From: Thiomicrorhabdus cannonii
Lineage (GTDB): Bacteria; Pseudomonadota; Gammaproteobacteria; Thiomicrospirales; Thiomicrospiraceae
Direction: 5' to 3'
NCBI RefSeq assembly: GCF_013391695.1
Contig: NZ_JACBGH010000002.1
Location: forward strand, 62,001 to 126,000
DNA: 64,000 nucleotides
Positions 22,137 to 44,742 of this stretch are shown here, one piece after another (the stretch's first letter is position 1; every line of letters begins with the position of its first letter). The translations under genes were made by a program, and so were the position numbers. The notes below the pieces were generated by a model. The model did not search any database. It was not told the origin of the DNA and saw only the letters and a list, made by a program, of their open reading frames with translations.

Positions 22137-23956
22137 AGCAGCCCGTTGATTTTCGCCTTAGCCTGCTTAGCCTCGCACTTGCCAGCGGCTTAAGCGGCTT
22201 GACCGGCTGTAGCCAACTGAATCCGCCGCAACCCGCCGGCGACGCCCCCAAACTTGTGCTGGTACACACTGCACCAGCGCTGGCCGAGGCCCCTCTTTCT
22301 CCGGCAAAACAATCCACTGAGAAGCCGCATCCTGCCGTCAGCGTTACCGAACCGACCGATCTGGCCAAAGCCACCCAACTGATTGTCGAACAGCACGACA
22401 ATCTGTGGGACGAGATCGCCGCGCAACTCACCTTGGGCGACGAGCATCTGGATGCCTTCGAAAACTATCAGAATTTTTACCTGCGCAATCCCAAACACCT
22501 GGCCCGCGTTTCCGACCGTGCCAAACCGTATCTGCACTATATCGTGCAGCAGGTCAAAAAGCGCAATATGCCGCTGGAAATTGCGCTGCTTCCGGTGATC
22601 GAAAGCGGCTTTCAGGCACAGGCGCGCTCCCACCAGAGCGCCGTGGGATTATGGCAGTTCATTCCGGAAACCGCCCATCTGTATGGTTTGCAGAGAAACT
22701 GGTGGTTTGACGGCCGGCAGGACGTCATTCAAAGCACCAACGCCGCGCTGGACTATCTGCAAAAACTCTATGAACTGAACGACAACGACTGGCTTTTGGC
22801 GCTGGCCTCCTATAATGGCGGCATCGGCAATGTCTGGAAAGCGGTCAAAAAATTCCGCCAGAAAACTCAACAGGCCGGGTCCGAGAAGGCCGATTTCTGG
22901 CAGATTCGCCACTACCTGCCCAAAGAAACCCAGCATTACGTGCCGCAACTGCTGGCGGTGGCGCATATTGTCAAAAATCGGCAGGCTCTCAACATAGAGC
23001 TCGAACCGATCGACAACCGCCCGTTTTTCGATGTCGTCACCCTCGACAAACAGATTGACCTGGGCATGGTCGCCTTGCTTTCCGATACACCGCAAGACCT
23101 GCTGGCGATGCTAAACCCCGGCTATCTGCAGGCGGTGACCCCGCCGAACGGGCCTTACCATATTGTTCTGCCGCTGGAAAACCAGGCGCAGTTTGCCGAG
23201 CAGTTGCAAAAAGACGCCTCGCTGTTCGAGATCCAGTGGACCGAGCACAAAATCAAAGCGGGCGACACCTTGAGCGAAATCGCCGCGCGTTATAAAACCA
23301 CCAGCAAAGCGATTCAAAAACTCAATAACATGAAAAACAATCGCCTAAGAGTCGGCAAAACCCTGCTGATTCCGGTTCCGCAGCATTATGCGCAGGCACT
23401 CGCCTCGCAACCTAAAAAGGCGTCATCGTACAAAGGTCCTAAGTTTTACCATAAGGTCAAAAGCGGCGAATCCTTGTGGACCATCGCACGCTACTACAAC
23501 ATCGACACCAAGACCTTGTGCAACTGGAACAATATCGGCGTGCGCACGCCCTTGAGCATCGGCCAGCAACTGGAAATCCGTTCCAATCAGTACGGTTATC
23601 AAACCCACTACACCCTCAAACCCGGCGACAGTTTGTGGACCGTGGCGCAGAAATTCAATGTCTCCACACAGGAAATCGCCAACTGGAACGGCCTCAAATC
23701 GAACGCCGTGCTGCAACCCGGTCAGCGCCTGACGCTCTGGCAACCTAAAAAAGCGGCTAGAACCGCTGTGGCCGCCAAAGCCGATAAATCGAACAAGTTC
23801 AAACAATACGTGGTCAAGTCGGGCGATAGTCTGTGGGATATCGCCAAGGCCAATAAAGTGACCACCCAGCAACTGCTTGTGCACAATCAACTCAACGAAA
23901 AAACCTATCTCAAACCCGGACAGGTATTGAAGATTCCGTATGACAATGAAACCTGA
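22133..23956 (+). CDS. mltD: Membrane-bound lytic murein transglycosylase D with four LysM domains
   Basis: A 607-residue lipoprotein that cleaves peptidoglycan glycan strands. The lipobox is LTGC with Cys26. The lysozyme-like domain follows, with the catalytic Glu in PVIESGF, then SAVGLWQFIPETA and LASYNGG. Four LysM repeats complete it, starting at HKIKAGDTLSEIA, HKVKSGESLWTIA, HYTLKPGDSLWTVA and YVVKSGDSLWDIA. The GTG start has AGGAGG seven bases upstream. An in-frame copy of the window's 12-mer at 22869-22880 encodes TQQAGS, between the catalytic domain motifs. Confidence 0.95.
   Translation: MKQPVDFRLSLLSLALASGLSGLTGCSQLNPPQPAGDAPKLVLVHTAPALAEAPLSPAKQSTEKPHPAVSVTEPTDLAKATQLIVEQHDNLWDEIAAQLTLGDEHLDAFENYQNFYLRNPKHLARVSDRAKPYLHYIVQQVKKRNMPLEIALLPVIESGFQAQARSHQSAVGLWQFIPETAHLYGLQRNWWFDGRQDVIQSTNAALDYLQKLYELNDNDWLLALASYNGGIGNVWKAVKKFRQKTQQAGSEKADFWQIRHYLPKETQHYVPQLLAVAHIVKNRQALNIELEPIDNRPFFDVVTLDKQIDLGMVALLSDTPQDLLAMLNPGYLQAVTPPNGPYHIVLPLENQAQFAEQLQKDASLFEIQWTEHKIKAGDTLSEIAARYKTTSKAIQKLNNMKNNRLRVGKTLLIPVPQHYAQALASQPKKASSYKGPKFYHKVKSGESLWTIARYYNIDTKTLCNWNNIGVRTPLSIGQQLEIRSNQYGYQTHYTLKPGDSLWTVAQKFNVSTQEIANWNGLKSNAVLQPGQRLTLWQPKKAARTAVAAKADKSNKFKQYVVKSGDSLWDIAKANKVTTQQLLVHNQLNEKTYLKPGQVLKIPYDNET
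22869..22880 (+). repeat. DUS-like 12-mer inside mltD
   Basis: An exact copy preceded by GAAAACTC, in the coding sense of mltD. Confidence 0.85.
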
Positions 23957-25919
23957 ATGCCATCGTTCAATGCCGTTCAATGTCATATTGAAAAGCTTGC
24001 TTTTCATTGCAACCGCGCTACTGCCAGTCTGGCATTCAGCGCATGCCAAGCCGAACCTGTCGGAAAACCAGCAGCTATTTCTGGATGCCTATCAGGCGAT
24101 CAAAAGCAATGACCGCCAATCCATCGCCAACTACAAGGCCAAACTCAAAGACTATCCGCTTTACCCTTATGTGCTTTACCACGATTACCGCCTGCACCTC
24201 AAAAGCACGCCCAATGCGCTGATTACCCAATTCATTGACGACAACAGCAACAACTATCTTGGCGAGCGCCTCCAAAGCAAGTGGCTGGAGTATCTGGGCG
24301 AGCAGAAACAGTGGAAAACCTTCCTGACGCATTATCAACCGCAGGCCTCGCGTGACCTGCAGTGCTACCACGTCCAAGCCCTGGCCAACCAAAACCAAAT
24401 GGAACCGGCCCTGCAGCAAGCCGCCGAACTATGGATCAGTGAACGCCCGTTGAGCGAGGCCTGCCAACCGCTGGACGGCTTGCTGCGCCAACACAACCGT
24501 TTAACCGGCTCCATGATCTGGCAGCGCATTGAACTGGCCATGAGCAAACGCCGCGTCAGCTTGGCGCAAACGCTCGCAAAAAACCTCTCCTCCGGGGAAC
24601 GCGCCATGTTTCAACACTGGCTCAAAGTCTATCAATCGCCCGACAAGATTCTCACTCCGCTGCCCGCCTCCATTGATCCGGTGATCCGCAAACCGATTTT
24701 TATGCAGGCGGTAAAAAGACTGTCTTCCAAAGAGCCCGAAAAAGCGCTTCAGGCTTTGGAAAAATTCTACGAACAATATGGCTTGAGCAAGGCGCAGTTC
24801 CAGCAATTACAGCGCGCCATTGCGCTTCGCAGCGCCTATAAGGACAACCCGAACGCCGACGAATTCCTGCAGGAAGTGAACGAGAACGGCAGCGCCACCG
24901 AGGAAAGTCTGCGCTGGCAGGCACAGCTGGCACTCAAACAATCCAACTGGCGGCTGTTGCTTGAAACCATCGAGCTGATGGATCACGAACAGCAGCAGGA
25001 AAGCCAGTGGCAGTATTGGAAAGCGCGCGCGCTGGCGGCCACCAGCCAGGAAAAACCCGCCCAAACCATCTACCGTGAACTGGCCAAGCAGCGCCACTTC
25101 TATGCCTTTATGGCCGCCGACATTCTCAAAACCGATTACCAGTTCAATCCCGATCCGGTCATGCAGATCGACAGCGCAGCGCTCATCAAAAAATACCCGC
25201 AACTGCGGCGTATGCAGGAACTGCTGGCGATTGATTGGCTGACCAGCGCCAAACGCGAATGGTACAGCCTGCTGGATCGCCTGGGGGCCGAAGAACTGCA
25301 TGCCGTTTCCATTTTGACCAGCCAATGGCAACAACACTCCATGGCCATTACCACCGCCGCCAAAGCGCAGAAATGGGACGACCTGGCGATTCGCTTTCCC
25401 ACACCGCATAAAGAACCGGTCATGCAGAGCGCGGAAAAACACGGGGTTGACCCTGCCTGGGTGTATGGCGTTATCCGCCGTGAAAGCGCCTTTGCAGCCG
25501 ATGTACGCTCCTCTGCCGGCGCCATCGGCCTGATGCAGCTGATGCCGCAAACCGCCAGATACATCGGTCAAAAACTAGGCTTCAAGAAAAACCGCTATAC
25601 GGAACTGACCGAACCCAATTCCAATATCGAACTGGGCAGCGCCTATTTGAGTTATCTTTATAAAAAATACGACGGCAACCGCGTACTGGCAACCGCCGCC
25701 TATAATGCCGGCCCGCAACGCGTCGACAGCTGGATTCCCAAAGACGGCGCCCTGCCGGCTGACCAATGGATTGATTCGATCCCATTCAGCGAAACCCGTG
25801 CCTACGTCAAAGCCGTGTTGGAATACTCGACGATCTTCAAATCCCTTCTCAATAAGCACTATGACCGCCTGAGCGACATCATGCCCGCCATCGGCTCAGT
25901 ACAAGAGCCTTCCCAATAA
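23940..25919 (+). CDS. slt: Soluble lytic murein transglycosylase Slt
   Basis: A 659-residue periplasmic enzyme. The signal peptide (VILKSLLFIATALLPVWHSAHA) is preceded by about ten extra residues if the first ATG is used; starting at the ATG at 23970 gives a more normal signal. The long alpha-superhelix follows (about 35-470), then the SLT catalytic domain with Glu in VIRRESAFAADV, SSAGAIGLMQLMPQTA and AAYNAGPQRV. It overlaps the end of mltD by 17 bases, so gloB, mltD and slt form one unit for wall turnover. Confidence 0.92.
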   Translation: MTMKPECHRSMPFNVILKSLLFIATALLPVWHSAHAKPNLSENQQLFLDAYQAIKSNDRQSIANYKAKLKDYPLYPYVLYHDYRLHLKSTPNALITQFIDDNSNNYLGERLQSKWLEYLGEQKQWKTFLTHYQPQASRDLQCYHVQALANQNQMEPALQQAAELWISERPLSEACQPLDGLLRQHNRLTGSMIWQRIELAMSKRRVSLAQTLAKNLSSGERAMFQHWLKVYQSPDKILTPLPASIDPVIRKPIFMQAVKRLSSKEPEKALQALEKFYEQYGLSKAQFQQLQRAIALRSAYKDNPNADEFLQEVNENGSATEESLRWQAQLALKQSNWRLLLETIELMDHEQQQESQWQYWKARALAATSQEKPAQTIYRELAKQRHFYAFMAADILKTDYQFNPDPVMQIDSAALIKKYPQLRRMQELLAIDWLTSAKREWYSLLDRLGAEELHAVSILTSQWQQHSMAITTAAKAQKWDDLAIRFPTPHKEPVMQSAEKHGVDPAWVYGVIRRESAFAADVRSSAGAIGLMQLMPQTARYIGQKLGFKKNRYTELTEPNSNIELGSAYLSYLYKKYDGNRVLATAAYNAGPQRVDSWIPKDGALPADQWIDSIPFSETRAYVKAVLEYSTIFKSLLNKHYDRLSDIMPAIGSVQEPSQ

Positions 25920-26007: not shown

Positions 26008-26094
26008 AAAAAAAACCCCAGTGGACAACCGGGGGTTTAAATATTATCTCATATAGAAATAATCAGAGGAGGATACTCATGAAGAAACATGATT
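26008..26094 (-). ncRNA. Candidate ~87-nt trans-acting small RNA with an anti-Shine-Dalgarno tract
   Basis: On the minus strand a consensus promoter (TTGACT, 17 bases, TACAAT) starts a transcript near 26094 with no open reading frame of useful length. In order it holds: hairpin TCATG-TTTCTT-CATGA; the unpaired pyrimidine tract GTATCCTCCTCTG, complementary to Shine-Dalgarno sequences; an 8-bp hairpin ATTATTTC-TATAT-GAGATAAT; and a terminator with AAACCCC/GGGGTTT stem and a run of eight or more T. This is the build of Hfq-type regulators that block ribosome sites. The family is not known to me. The same terminator would also stop cysS read-through. Confidence 0.65.
26012..26038 (-). terminator. 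Terminator of the candidate small RNA (and of cysS)
   Basis: AAACCCC and GGGGTTT arms enclose a 13-base loop; the U-run on the minus strand is eight long (26008-26015). Confidence 0.8.
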
Positions 26095-26101
26095 AAGGCA
26101 A

Positions 26102-26130
26102 ATTGTATTAGCGTTTCCTAATTTAGTCAA
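26102..26130 (-). promoter_or_regulatory. Sigma-70 promoter of the candidate small RNA
   Basis: On the minus strand TTGACT (26130-26125) and TACAAT (26107-26102) are separated by 17 bases. It is the best promoter match I saw in the window and has no protein gene downstream. Confidence 0.75.
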
Positions 26131-26286: not shown

Positions 26287-27657
26287 TTAACTTCTGCGCC
26301 AGGTAGTGCCCTGTGGCGAATCCAACAACTCAATGCCTTGCGCTGCCAAAGCGTCGCGAATCTCGTCGGAACGGGCAAAGTTTTTCGCGGCGCGCGCCTG
26401 CTTGCGTTCTTCAATCAGGGCTTCGATCTGCGCGTCATCCATATCCGAGGATGAAGGCTGCGATTTAAAGAACTGCTCCGCCGGCTCCATCAACAAACCG
26501 ATCTGGTTTGCCAACTTCAACAACAATCCCGCCAACGCCGCATCTTTCTGCTTATTGACCTCTTTAGCCAACTCAAACAGCACCGCCATCGCTTTGGGGG
26601 TATTGAAGTCGTCGTTCATCACGTCCATAAACTCTTTTTCAAAATCGGTGTTCTGTGCGGCTTCCCCGATTTCCACGCCTTCCAACGCCGAATACAGACG
26701 CCCGACACTGGTCTTGGCATTGTTCAGGTTCTCTTCGGAGTAGTTCACCGGCGAACGGTAGTGGCTCGCCAACAGGAAATAACGGATGACTTCCGGATGG
26801 TAAAGTTTCAACACTTCGCGGATCGTAAAGAAGTTGTTCAACGACTTGGACATCTTTTCGTTGTCGACCCGCACGAAACCGCAGTGCATCCAGGTGTTCA
26901 CATAATGCTCGCCGGTCGCACACTCGGATTGGGCGATTTCGTTTTCGTGGTGCGGGAACGACAAATCCATACCGCCGCCGTGGATGTCGAAATGATTGCC
27001 CAGACACTTGGTGGACATCGCCGAACATTCAATATGCCACCCCGGACGCCCGCCGCCCCAGTTGGAATCCCAGGAGGGTTCGTTTTCTTTGGACGCCTTC
27101 CACAACACGAAATCCAGCGGATCCTGTTTGATTTCGTTCACTTCGACACGCGCGCCCGATTCCAGTTCGTCGAGATGCTTGCCGGACAAACGACCGTACT
27201 CGTTAAAGGCCTTGACCTTGAAGTAAACGTCGCCGTTGTTCGCCGCATAAGCAAAGCCTTTGTCGATCAGCGTTTGGATCATGTGCTGGATTTCATGGAT
27301 ATGCTCGGTGGCTTTCGGCTCCATATCCGGACGCAACACGTTCATCGCCTTTTCATCGGTATGCATTTCGTCGATCATGCGCGTCGTCAGCGACTGGATC
27401 GACTCGCCGTTTTCCAGGGCGCGTTTGATGATTTTGTCGTCGATGTCGGTGATGTTGCGCACATAGGTCACGTCATAACCCAATGCGCGCAGATGGCGCA
27501 CCACCGTATCAAACACCACCATGACACGCGCATGGCCGATATGACACAGGTCGTACACCGTCACCCCGCACACATACATGCCCACTTTGCCGGGATGAAT
27601 CGGGGTAAAAAGTTCTTTTTGACGGGTTTCGGTATTGTAAATATGCAGTGCTGTCAT
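26287..27657 (-). CDS. cysS: Cysteinyl-tRNA synthetase
   Basis: A 456-residue class I synthetase charging tRNA-Cys. The HIGH-type motif is in [15 protein letters not shown]. Zinc ligands include Cys in MYVCG and in HIECSAMS plus His in [12 protein letters not shown]. The KMSKS loop is [13 protein letters not shown]. The anticodon-binding C-terminus ends [24 protein letters not shown]. The length is normal. It is divergent from ppiA. About 190 bases after its stop come the small RNA promoter and gene on the same strand. Confidence 0.97.
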
Positions 27658-44500: not shown

Positions 44501-44576
44501 TGGTGGGTCGTGGGCGATTCGAACGCCCGACCAATTGATTAAAAGTCAACTGCTCTACCGGCTGAGCTAACGACCC
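44501..44576 (-). tRNA. tRNA-Lys (anticodon UUU), copy 2
   Basis: A 76-base tRNA with encoded CCA. The acceptor stem GGGTCGT pairs with ACGACCC, the D-loop is AGCTCAGCCGGTAGAGC, and the anticodon loop ACTTTTAAT gives UUU. GTTCGAATC is the T-loop. It is identical to the copy at 44667-44742. Confidence 0.96.
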
Positions 44577-44666
44577 ATATTGTAAGTTTTGCACGTTGTA
44601 AAAGCGTTAACTTAAGCGTGATGTTTAAGGTAACTCTATTACGTTTCCAAGCGTCCTGAGTAAGGA

Positions 44667-44742
44667 TGGTGGGTCGTGGGCGATTCGAACGCCCGACCAA
44701 TTGATTAAAAGTCAACTGCTCTACCGGCTGAGCTAACGACCC
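44667..44742 (-). tRNA. tRNA-Lys (anticodon UUU), copy 1
   Basis: Identical in sequence to the copy 90 bases downstream on the same strand, with CCA encoded. It is the promoter-proximal copy of the two-gene transcript. Confidence 0.96.

Follow-up and report, generated by a model that had tools for sequence, protein, structure and literature searches.

Anti-Shine-Dalgarno sRNAs of several designs have been described. NfeR1 / alpha-r14 of rhizobia carries ultraconserved anti-Shine-Dalgarno motifs that are unpaired, on stems that vary, and pairs at the ntrB initiation region, according to the available part of the report (PMC10746234). CyaR pairs with the ompX Shine-Dalgarno sequence and impedes ribosome binding, again as far as the available text goes (PMC11795201). 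A third report, available in part, describes the Burkholderia double-hairpin 'toxic small RNAs' (Rfam RF02278) as short, with an unpaired, CU-rich segment that is predicted to mask ribosome sites, and the NmsR sRNAs of Neisseria meningitidis as a tandem pair whose CU-rich unpaired stretches are complementary to ribosome-binding regions of TCA-cycle genes (PMC5688073).

We analysed a locus of Thiomicrorhabdus cannonii lying in a stretch of 64,000 nucleotides (hereafter the window), from an assembly of 2.49 Mb. It quite likely encodes a free-standing, trans-acting sRNA of the Thiomicrospiraceae, probably Hfq-assisted, that would block translation initiation, and thus a putative new family within a known kind, the anti-Shine-Dalgarno sRNAs. 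The Thiomicrospiraceae are sulfur-oxidizing chemolithoautotrophs, and the RNA is a well-delimited candidate riboregulator for this family.

By analogy, NfeR1, CyaR and the Burkholderia double-hairpin RNAs appear to be the mechanistically nearest. The locus shares with NfeR1 / alpha-r14, as described in the available text, a conserved unpaired anti-Shine-Dalgarno motif on variable stems, but the rhizobial RNA has three CCUCCUCCC motifs in three hairpins, whereas this gammaproteobacterial RNA has a single tract, UAUCCUCCUCUG, containing CCUCCUCUG (PMC10746234). With CyaR it would share pairing to the Shine-Dalgarno sequence (PMC11795201), and with the Burkholderia RNAs a short length and a CU-rich unpaired stretch; the latter, however, have three to five homologues per genome, against one strong match per genome here (PMC5688073). 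NmsR resembles it, by description, in its CU-rich unpaired stretch matching ribosome-binding regions (PMC5688073). No Rfam 15 family reached its gathering score at the RNA locus or at the loci of six relatives, and in the window two tRNAs alone reached it, which bears out the earlier note's statement that it knew of no named family. The anti-hemB family RF02837 scored 23.9 bits (gathering score 49.5, E 0.0007), in a weak alignment that spans its whole model, RF02278 scored 17.8 bits (gathering score 50), and CyaR was absent from the 25 Rfam matches at E <= 10. Among the literature matches listed, in which subscription journals are thinly covered, no title or abstract opening names the RNA, nor is there a described sRNA for the family.

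Parts of the RNA gene and its promoter palindrome

The RNA gene is flanked by cysS (26287-27657, minus strand) and slt (23940-25919, plus strand), names that come from a reading of the translations. The promoter, the three stem-loops, the U-rich terminator and the unpaired tract between the first two stems, all described in the earlier note, were recovered in place (Table 1). The fold of 26096-26008 reaches -20.9 kcal/mol (z -2.96; 1 of 200 shuffles equally stable), with UAUCCUCCUCUG predicted to be unpaired, the RNA start is expected from the promoter position near A26094, and the 7-pair terminator stem is followed by TTTTTTTT.

Table 1. Features of the RNA locus, in window coordinates
Feature	Position	Strand	Basis
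Sigma-70-type promoter, TTGACT-N17-TACAAT	26102..26130	-	consensus match 10/12
Candidate operator, palindrome ATTAG-N6-CTAAT in promoter spacer	26107..26122	-	motif counts across copies
Putative small RNA gene, ~87 nt	26008..26094	-	start expected from promoter; end is the terminator's last U
Hairpin 1, UCAUG-UUUCUU-CAUGA	26077..26092	-	fold and alignment
Core, 19 nt, UUUCUUCAUGAGUAUCCUC	26069..26087	-	reverse complement is GAGGAUACUC-AUG-AAG-AAA
Exposed anti-Shine-Dalgarno tract UAUCCUCCUCUG	26064..26075	-	predicted unpaired
Hairpin 2, AUUAUUUC/GAGAUAAU	26043..26063	-	fold and alignment
Terminator stem-loop	26016..26034	-	both-sided changes at 7/7 pairs
Terminal run, eight U	26008..26015	-	sequence

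Taken alone, the promoter and terminator consensus matches are weak evidence, close to what shuffled sequence gives: a 3-kb scan found 4 promoter-like sites (2.5 in shuffles, sd 1.4) and 9 terminator-like sites (4.8, sd 2.2). The locus is raised above chance because it is conserved, with BLAST matches in relatives, a covarying terminator and a near-invariant 5' half between divergent flanks. Of 48 distinct copies, 43 also have TTGAC no more than 60 bases upstream of the core AUG.

The promoter holds a palindrome that the earlier note did not mention. Its strict form, ATWAG-N6-CTWAT between -35 and -10, is present in 24 of 25 distinct copies from the loci L001-L027 (L023 left out) and in 6 of 22 others. 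The GAC-anchored form has its sole exact match in the window's own genome at the RNA promoter, with 5 more at one mismatch, against 7 in all for the control. This suggests regulated transcription in Thiomicrorhabdus, and a regulator bound to this candidate operator would block or remodel the promoter; shared descent could explain part of the conservation.

Distribution and conservation across the family

A BLAST search with 151 bases, cut off at E below 1e-6, found a match in 30 of the 58 genomes searched, the window's own included, and all 30 lie within its family. A covariance model built from 38 copies, whose E-values are rough, placed the RNA in 51 of 62 family genomes (E <= 1.4e-6), with one strong match in each; 7 of 13 second matches were fetched and read by eye, and the core was in none. 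Four genomes of one genus label (g2) score weakly (E 0.03-0.15) and carry the exact 19-nt core within the stretch TTTCTTCATGAGTATCCTC, together with a promoter-like sequence and a terminator, in a shorter form of about 60 nt. The holders thus total 55 of 62 genomes of the family, which takes in records named Thiomicrorhabdus, Hydrogenovibrio and Thiomicrospira: 51 by the model plus these four. Decay of the promoter and stems in close relatives, which the earlier note would have counted against the RNA, was looked for and is not what these genomes display, and the gene is very probably real and kept across the family.

Among 369 genomes spread over the class, the model had four strong matches, all in family members. 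A marginal match in a genome of another family (G209; E 0.0044 per genome) is about what chance would yield in 369 genomes; it was rejected as a homologue and is a lead only. The stretch itself (L100:1513-1582, minus strand) is promoter-like, CU-rich (UAUCUCCUCUAUAUCCUCCUUUGG) and terminator-ended, just upstream of a frame that by eye looks like fumC, and could be a convergent anti-Shine-Dalgarno RNA, a leader or chance. A pattern match in a member of the Leptospiraceae lies inside a long reading frame and was taken as chance.

The other seven family genomes, six of the same genus and G073, with assemblies 79-99% complete, gave no strong model match (best E 0.13) and no core by pattern. G022 and G028 lack the RNA cleanly at its native site: cysS is followed by slt (by eye), and the gap holds a short terminator-like stretch with C and G runs. 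Other sequence follows cysS in G001, G017 and G029, and no cysS match was found in G012 and G073, where the region may just be missing from the assembly. The hfq gene is present in 30 of 32 same-genus genomes, and in 5 of the 6 that lack the RNA. With holders and non-holders in one genus, one strong copy, a steady seed and a shifting scaffold, the family would offer a clean system for the specificity of anti-Shine-Dalgarno RNAs.

The 19-nt core is almost constant while the scaffold turns over around it. The 20-mer complement of the core is exact in 49 of the 55 holders, a count independent of the 48 distinct copies, which were gathered with a pattern containing part of the core; five holders have one mismatch and one has three, through an inserted base. 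The departures are an inserted A (L014), A for G (L018), a core one base shorter (L025) and a U-run variant (L035 and L056). Across 22 Thiomicrorhabdus-type copies, the 5' half is invariant at 36 of 41 positions; L014, L020, L023 and L025 were left out because of indels, a different promoter or a different genus. The majority share is 0.45 in the upstream flank and 0.42 in the downstream one; across the promoter span it is 0.68, a value lowered by unaligned one-base shifts. The predicted unpaired probability of UAUCCUC averages 0.94 and is at least 0.8 in 46 of 48 distinct copies, with L024 and L030 shortened at an internal T run; a re-run gave 0.94 and 45 of 47 copies, against 0.65 with shuffled flanks.

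The earlier note had proposed a search for conservation and compensatory changes, and the outcome differs by helix. The RNA is conserved and every pair of the terminator helix covaries, and the whole structure has 61 double-change cells against 20.8 (sd 3.5) in shuffles. Hairpin 2 varies on one side at 3 of 8 pairs and on both at 1 of 8; hairpin 1 has no variation in the alignment and so yields no covariation evidence. Outside the alignment, L115 (g28) has another 5' arm of hairpin 1, UACUCA with UGAGUA, and in g2 this arm is absent, its place being taken by a hairpin with the loop UAUCCU. Judging from these predicted folds, the feature kept across scaffolds is single-stranded UAUCCUC.

Resemblance to initiation regions and the search for targets

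Read as its reverse complement, the core gives a Shine-Dalgarno sequence, a spacer, a start codon and two lysine codons (Table 1). By its letters it mirrors a whole translation-initiation region, of which the earlier note had named the Shine-Dalgarno part alone; the likeness follows partly from CCUCC standing near the CAUG stem. In the 62 genomes, the 20-mer complement at <=3 mismatches had 111 matches, 55 at the RNA locus and 56 elsewhere, against 15 for the reversed pattern, the comparison of 56 with 15 being counted by hand. Twenty of the 56 were fetched, mostly those found again in related genomes; in 19 the matched ATG begins a reading frame of 81 codons or more, and in L193 the frame has only 10 codons. 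Among the encoded proteins, judged by eye, are OmpA-like, small lipoprotein, cytochrome-like and MBL-like ones, each recurring in two to four genomes; they often look exported, and their MKK or MKN starts are imposed by the search pattern. This enrichment is what strong initiation regions look like, and it points to a target class and to no single target. The same search of the window's own genome matched nowhere except the RNA locus. The looser pattern GAGGATA-N2-5-ATG has 12 matches there, the RNA locus included, against 1 for the control; among them are FlgH, a flagellin-domain protein and a redoxin-glutaredoxin.

Two candidates were followed across the family, as the earlier note had advised that targets be predicted. 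Lipoprotein orthologues occur in 53 of 62 genomes and OmpA-like orthologues in 45 of 62 (the OmpA-like test used 47 of 53 matches, 6 not being fetched). The genomes that had suggested the genes (4 and 2), two OmpA-like rows with GTG starts and 144 of 291 controls, which were candidate loci, were dropped. Complementarity beyond CCUCC exceeded that of the 147 control initiation regions (lipoprotein p 2.9e-9, OmpA-like p 1.2e-5), but was marginal against 19 strong-Shine-Dalgarno controls (p 0.055 and p 0.059). For the lipoprotein, z is -0.84 in 45 holders and -1.04 in 4 non-holders, and the raw energy -13.2 against -11.6, a gap driven by G028; for the OmpA-like gene, z is -1.00 in 38 holders and -1.05 in 5 non-holders, and the raw energy -8.6 against -8.3. 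This loss control is weak, with four and five non-holder genomes, probably of one clade, and with G012 counted as a non-holder although the assembly does not include its cysS region. As both mRNAs match about equally in genomes without the RNA, neither was retained as a target.

A DUF4870-like gene was also rejected, a good near-complement being present in G009, G015, G021 and G030 only (among 30 loci, 5 had no frame and the start was wrongly chosen in some). Upstream of this gene in L116, L117, L148 and L149, AATAATCAGAAAAGGATATTTATG closely mirrors the RNA, with one base different in L149. Of all initiation regions scored, TCAGAGGAGGAAAGTCATGAAAAAA, before a long frame in G033 (L119:1123-1200), gives the most stable predicted duplex, -23.7 kcal/mol.

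The locus combines a free-standing gene with its own promoter and terminator, on sequence evidence, and a conserved CU tract, predicted to be exposed, that is complementary to the Shine-Dalgarno sequence. We infer that transcription would start from the RNA's own sigma-70 promoter, where a regulator recognising the spacer palindrome probably acts in Thiomicrorhabdus, and would stop at the intrinsic terminator, leaving a U8 tail to which Hfq would bind. The tract UAUCCUCCUCUG, the adjacent UUUCUU loop and the opened hairpin 1 could then pair with target mRNAs across the Shine-Dalgarno sequence, the start codon and the codons just after it, and such pairing would block ribosome entry.

One might alternatively see the core as antisense to the family's consensus initiation region (Shine-Dalgarno, spacer, AUG, AAG AAA), and the RNA as a broad brake on translation, a possible but unlikely reading. 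Such a brake would hit strongly initiated, often exported (MKK...) proteins; the core would be kept as a generic mirror of initiation regions, and the RNA would be so dispensable that some relatives lack it.

Alternatives to a trans-acting RNA

It is improbable that the transcript is a minute mRNA of leader-peptide or mini-gene type, AUG AGU AUC CUC CUC UGA, whose function is the peptide MSILL or its translation. The earlier note saw no coding potential, which holds for proteins, but a five-codon frame, AUGAGUAUCCUCCUCUGA, does encode MSILL*. Of the 48 distinct copies, 46 spell MSILL*, and between them they write Leu-stop in three ways (CTC TGA, CTT TAG and TTA TGA), as a peptide would have it; yet no Shine-Dalgarno sequence was seen by eye, hairpin 1 encloses the start codon in the window's RNA, L127 has lost the stop (TGG) and L018 has Asn in place of Ser. 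All 55 holders keep the third base of AGT, ATC and the first CTC unchanged, which a peptide would not demand, and slt downstream is convergent in most loci. Constraint on the RNA would seem to explain this pattern better than a peptide.

A cis-acting role, as antisense to slt read-through mRNA or as a cysS terminator element, also has little probability. In the loci L001-L030 the RNA follows cysS in 28 of 30 and precedes slt in 29 of 30, so that read-through RNA from a convergent slt would be fully complementary to it. Against this, the RNA has its own promoter, the flanks are not conserved, and the core stands beside other genes in the four g2 genomes and in L036; because the neighbours differ there, we regard the RNA as an independent unit and no piece of cysS or slt.

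That the RNA acts on a protein instead of mRNAs, by binding or sequestering it, is improbable; one example would be a protein recognising the CCUCC of the 16S 3' tail. The anti-Shine-Dalgarno sequence of that tail contains CCUCCU, as does the tract, the core hardly changes, and no target emerged among the candidates tested, all of which would fit; the core, however, also takes in UUUCUUCAUGAGUAU, absent from the 16S tail, and by eye the RNA has no GGA for CsrA.

That there is no gene, a promoter and a terminator having met by chance in an intergenic region, is extremely improbable: the motif scans taken alone are near expectation, but the RNA is conserved, covaries and stands at different genomic sites in different relatives. 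Of six Neisseria-type uptake signal motifs, five are absent from the window. Elsewhere in the window, two tandem tRNA-Lys (TTT) genes stand 90 bases apart on the minus strand (44501-44742).
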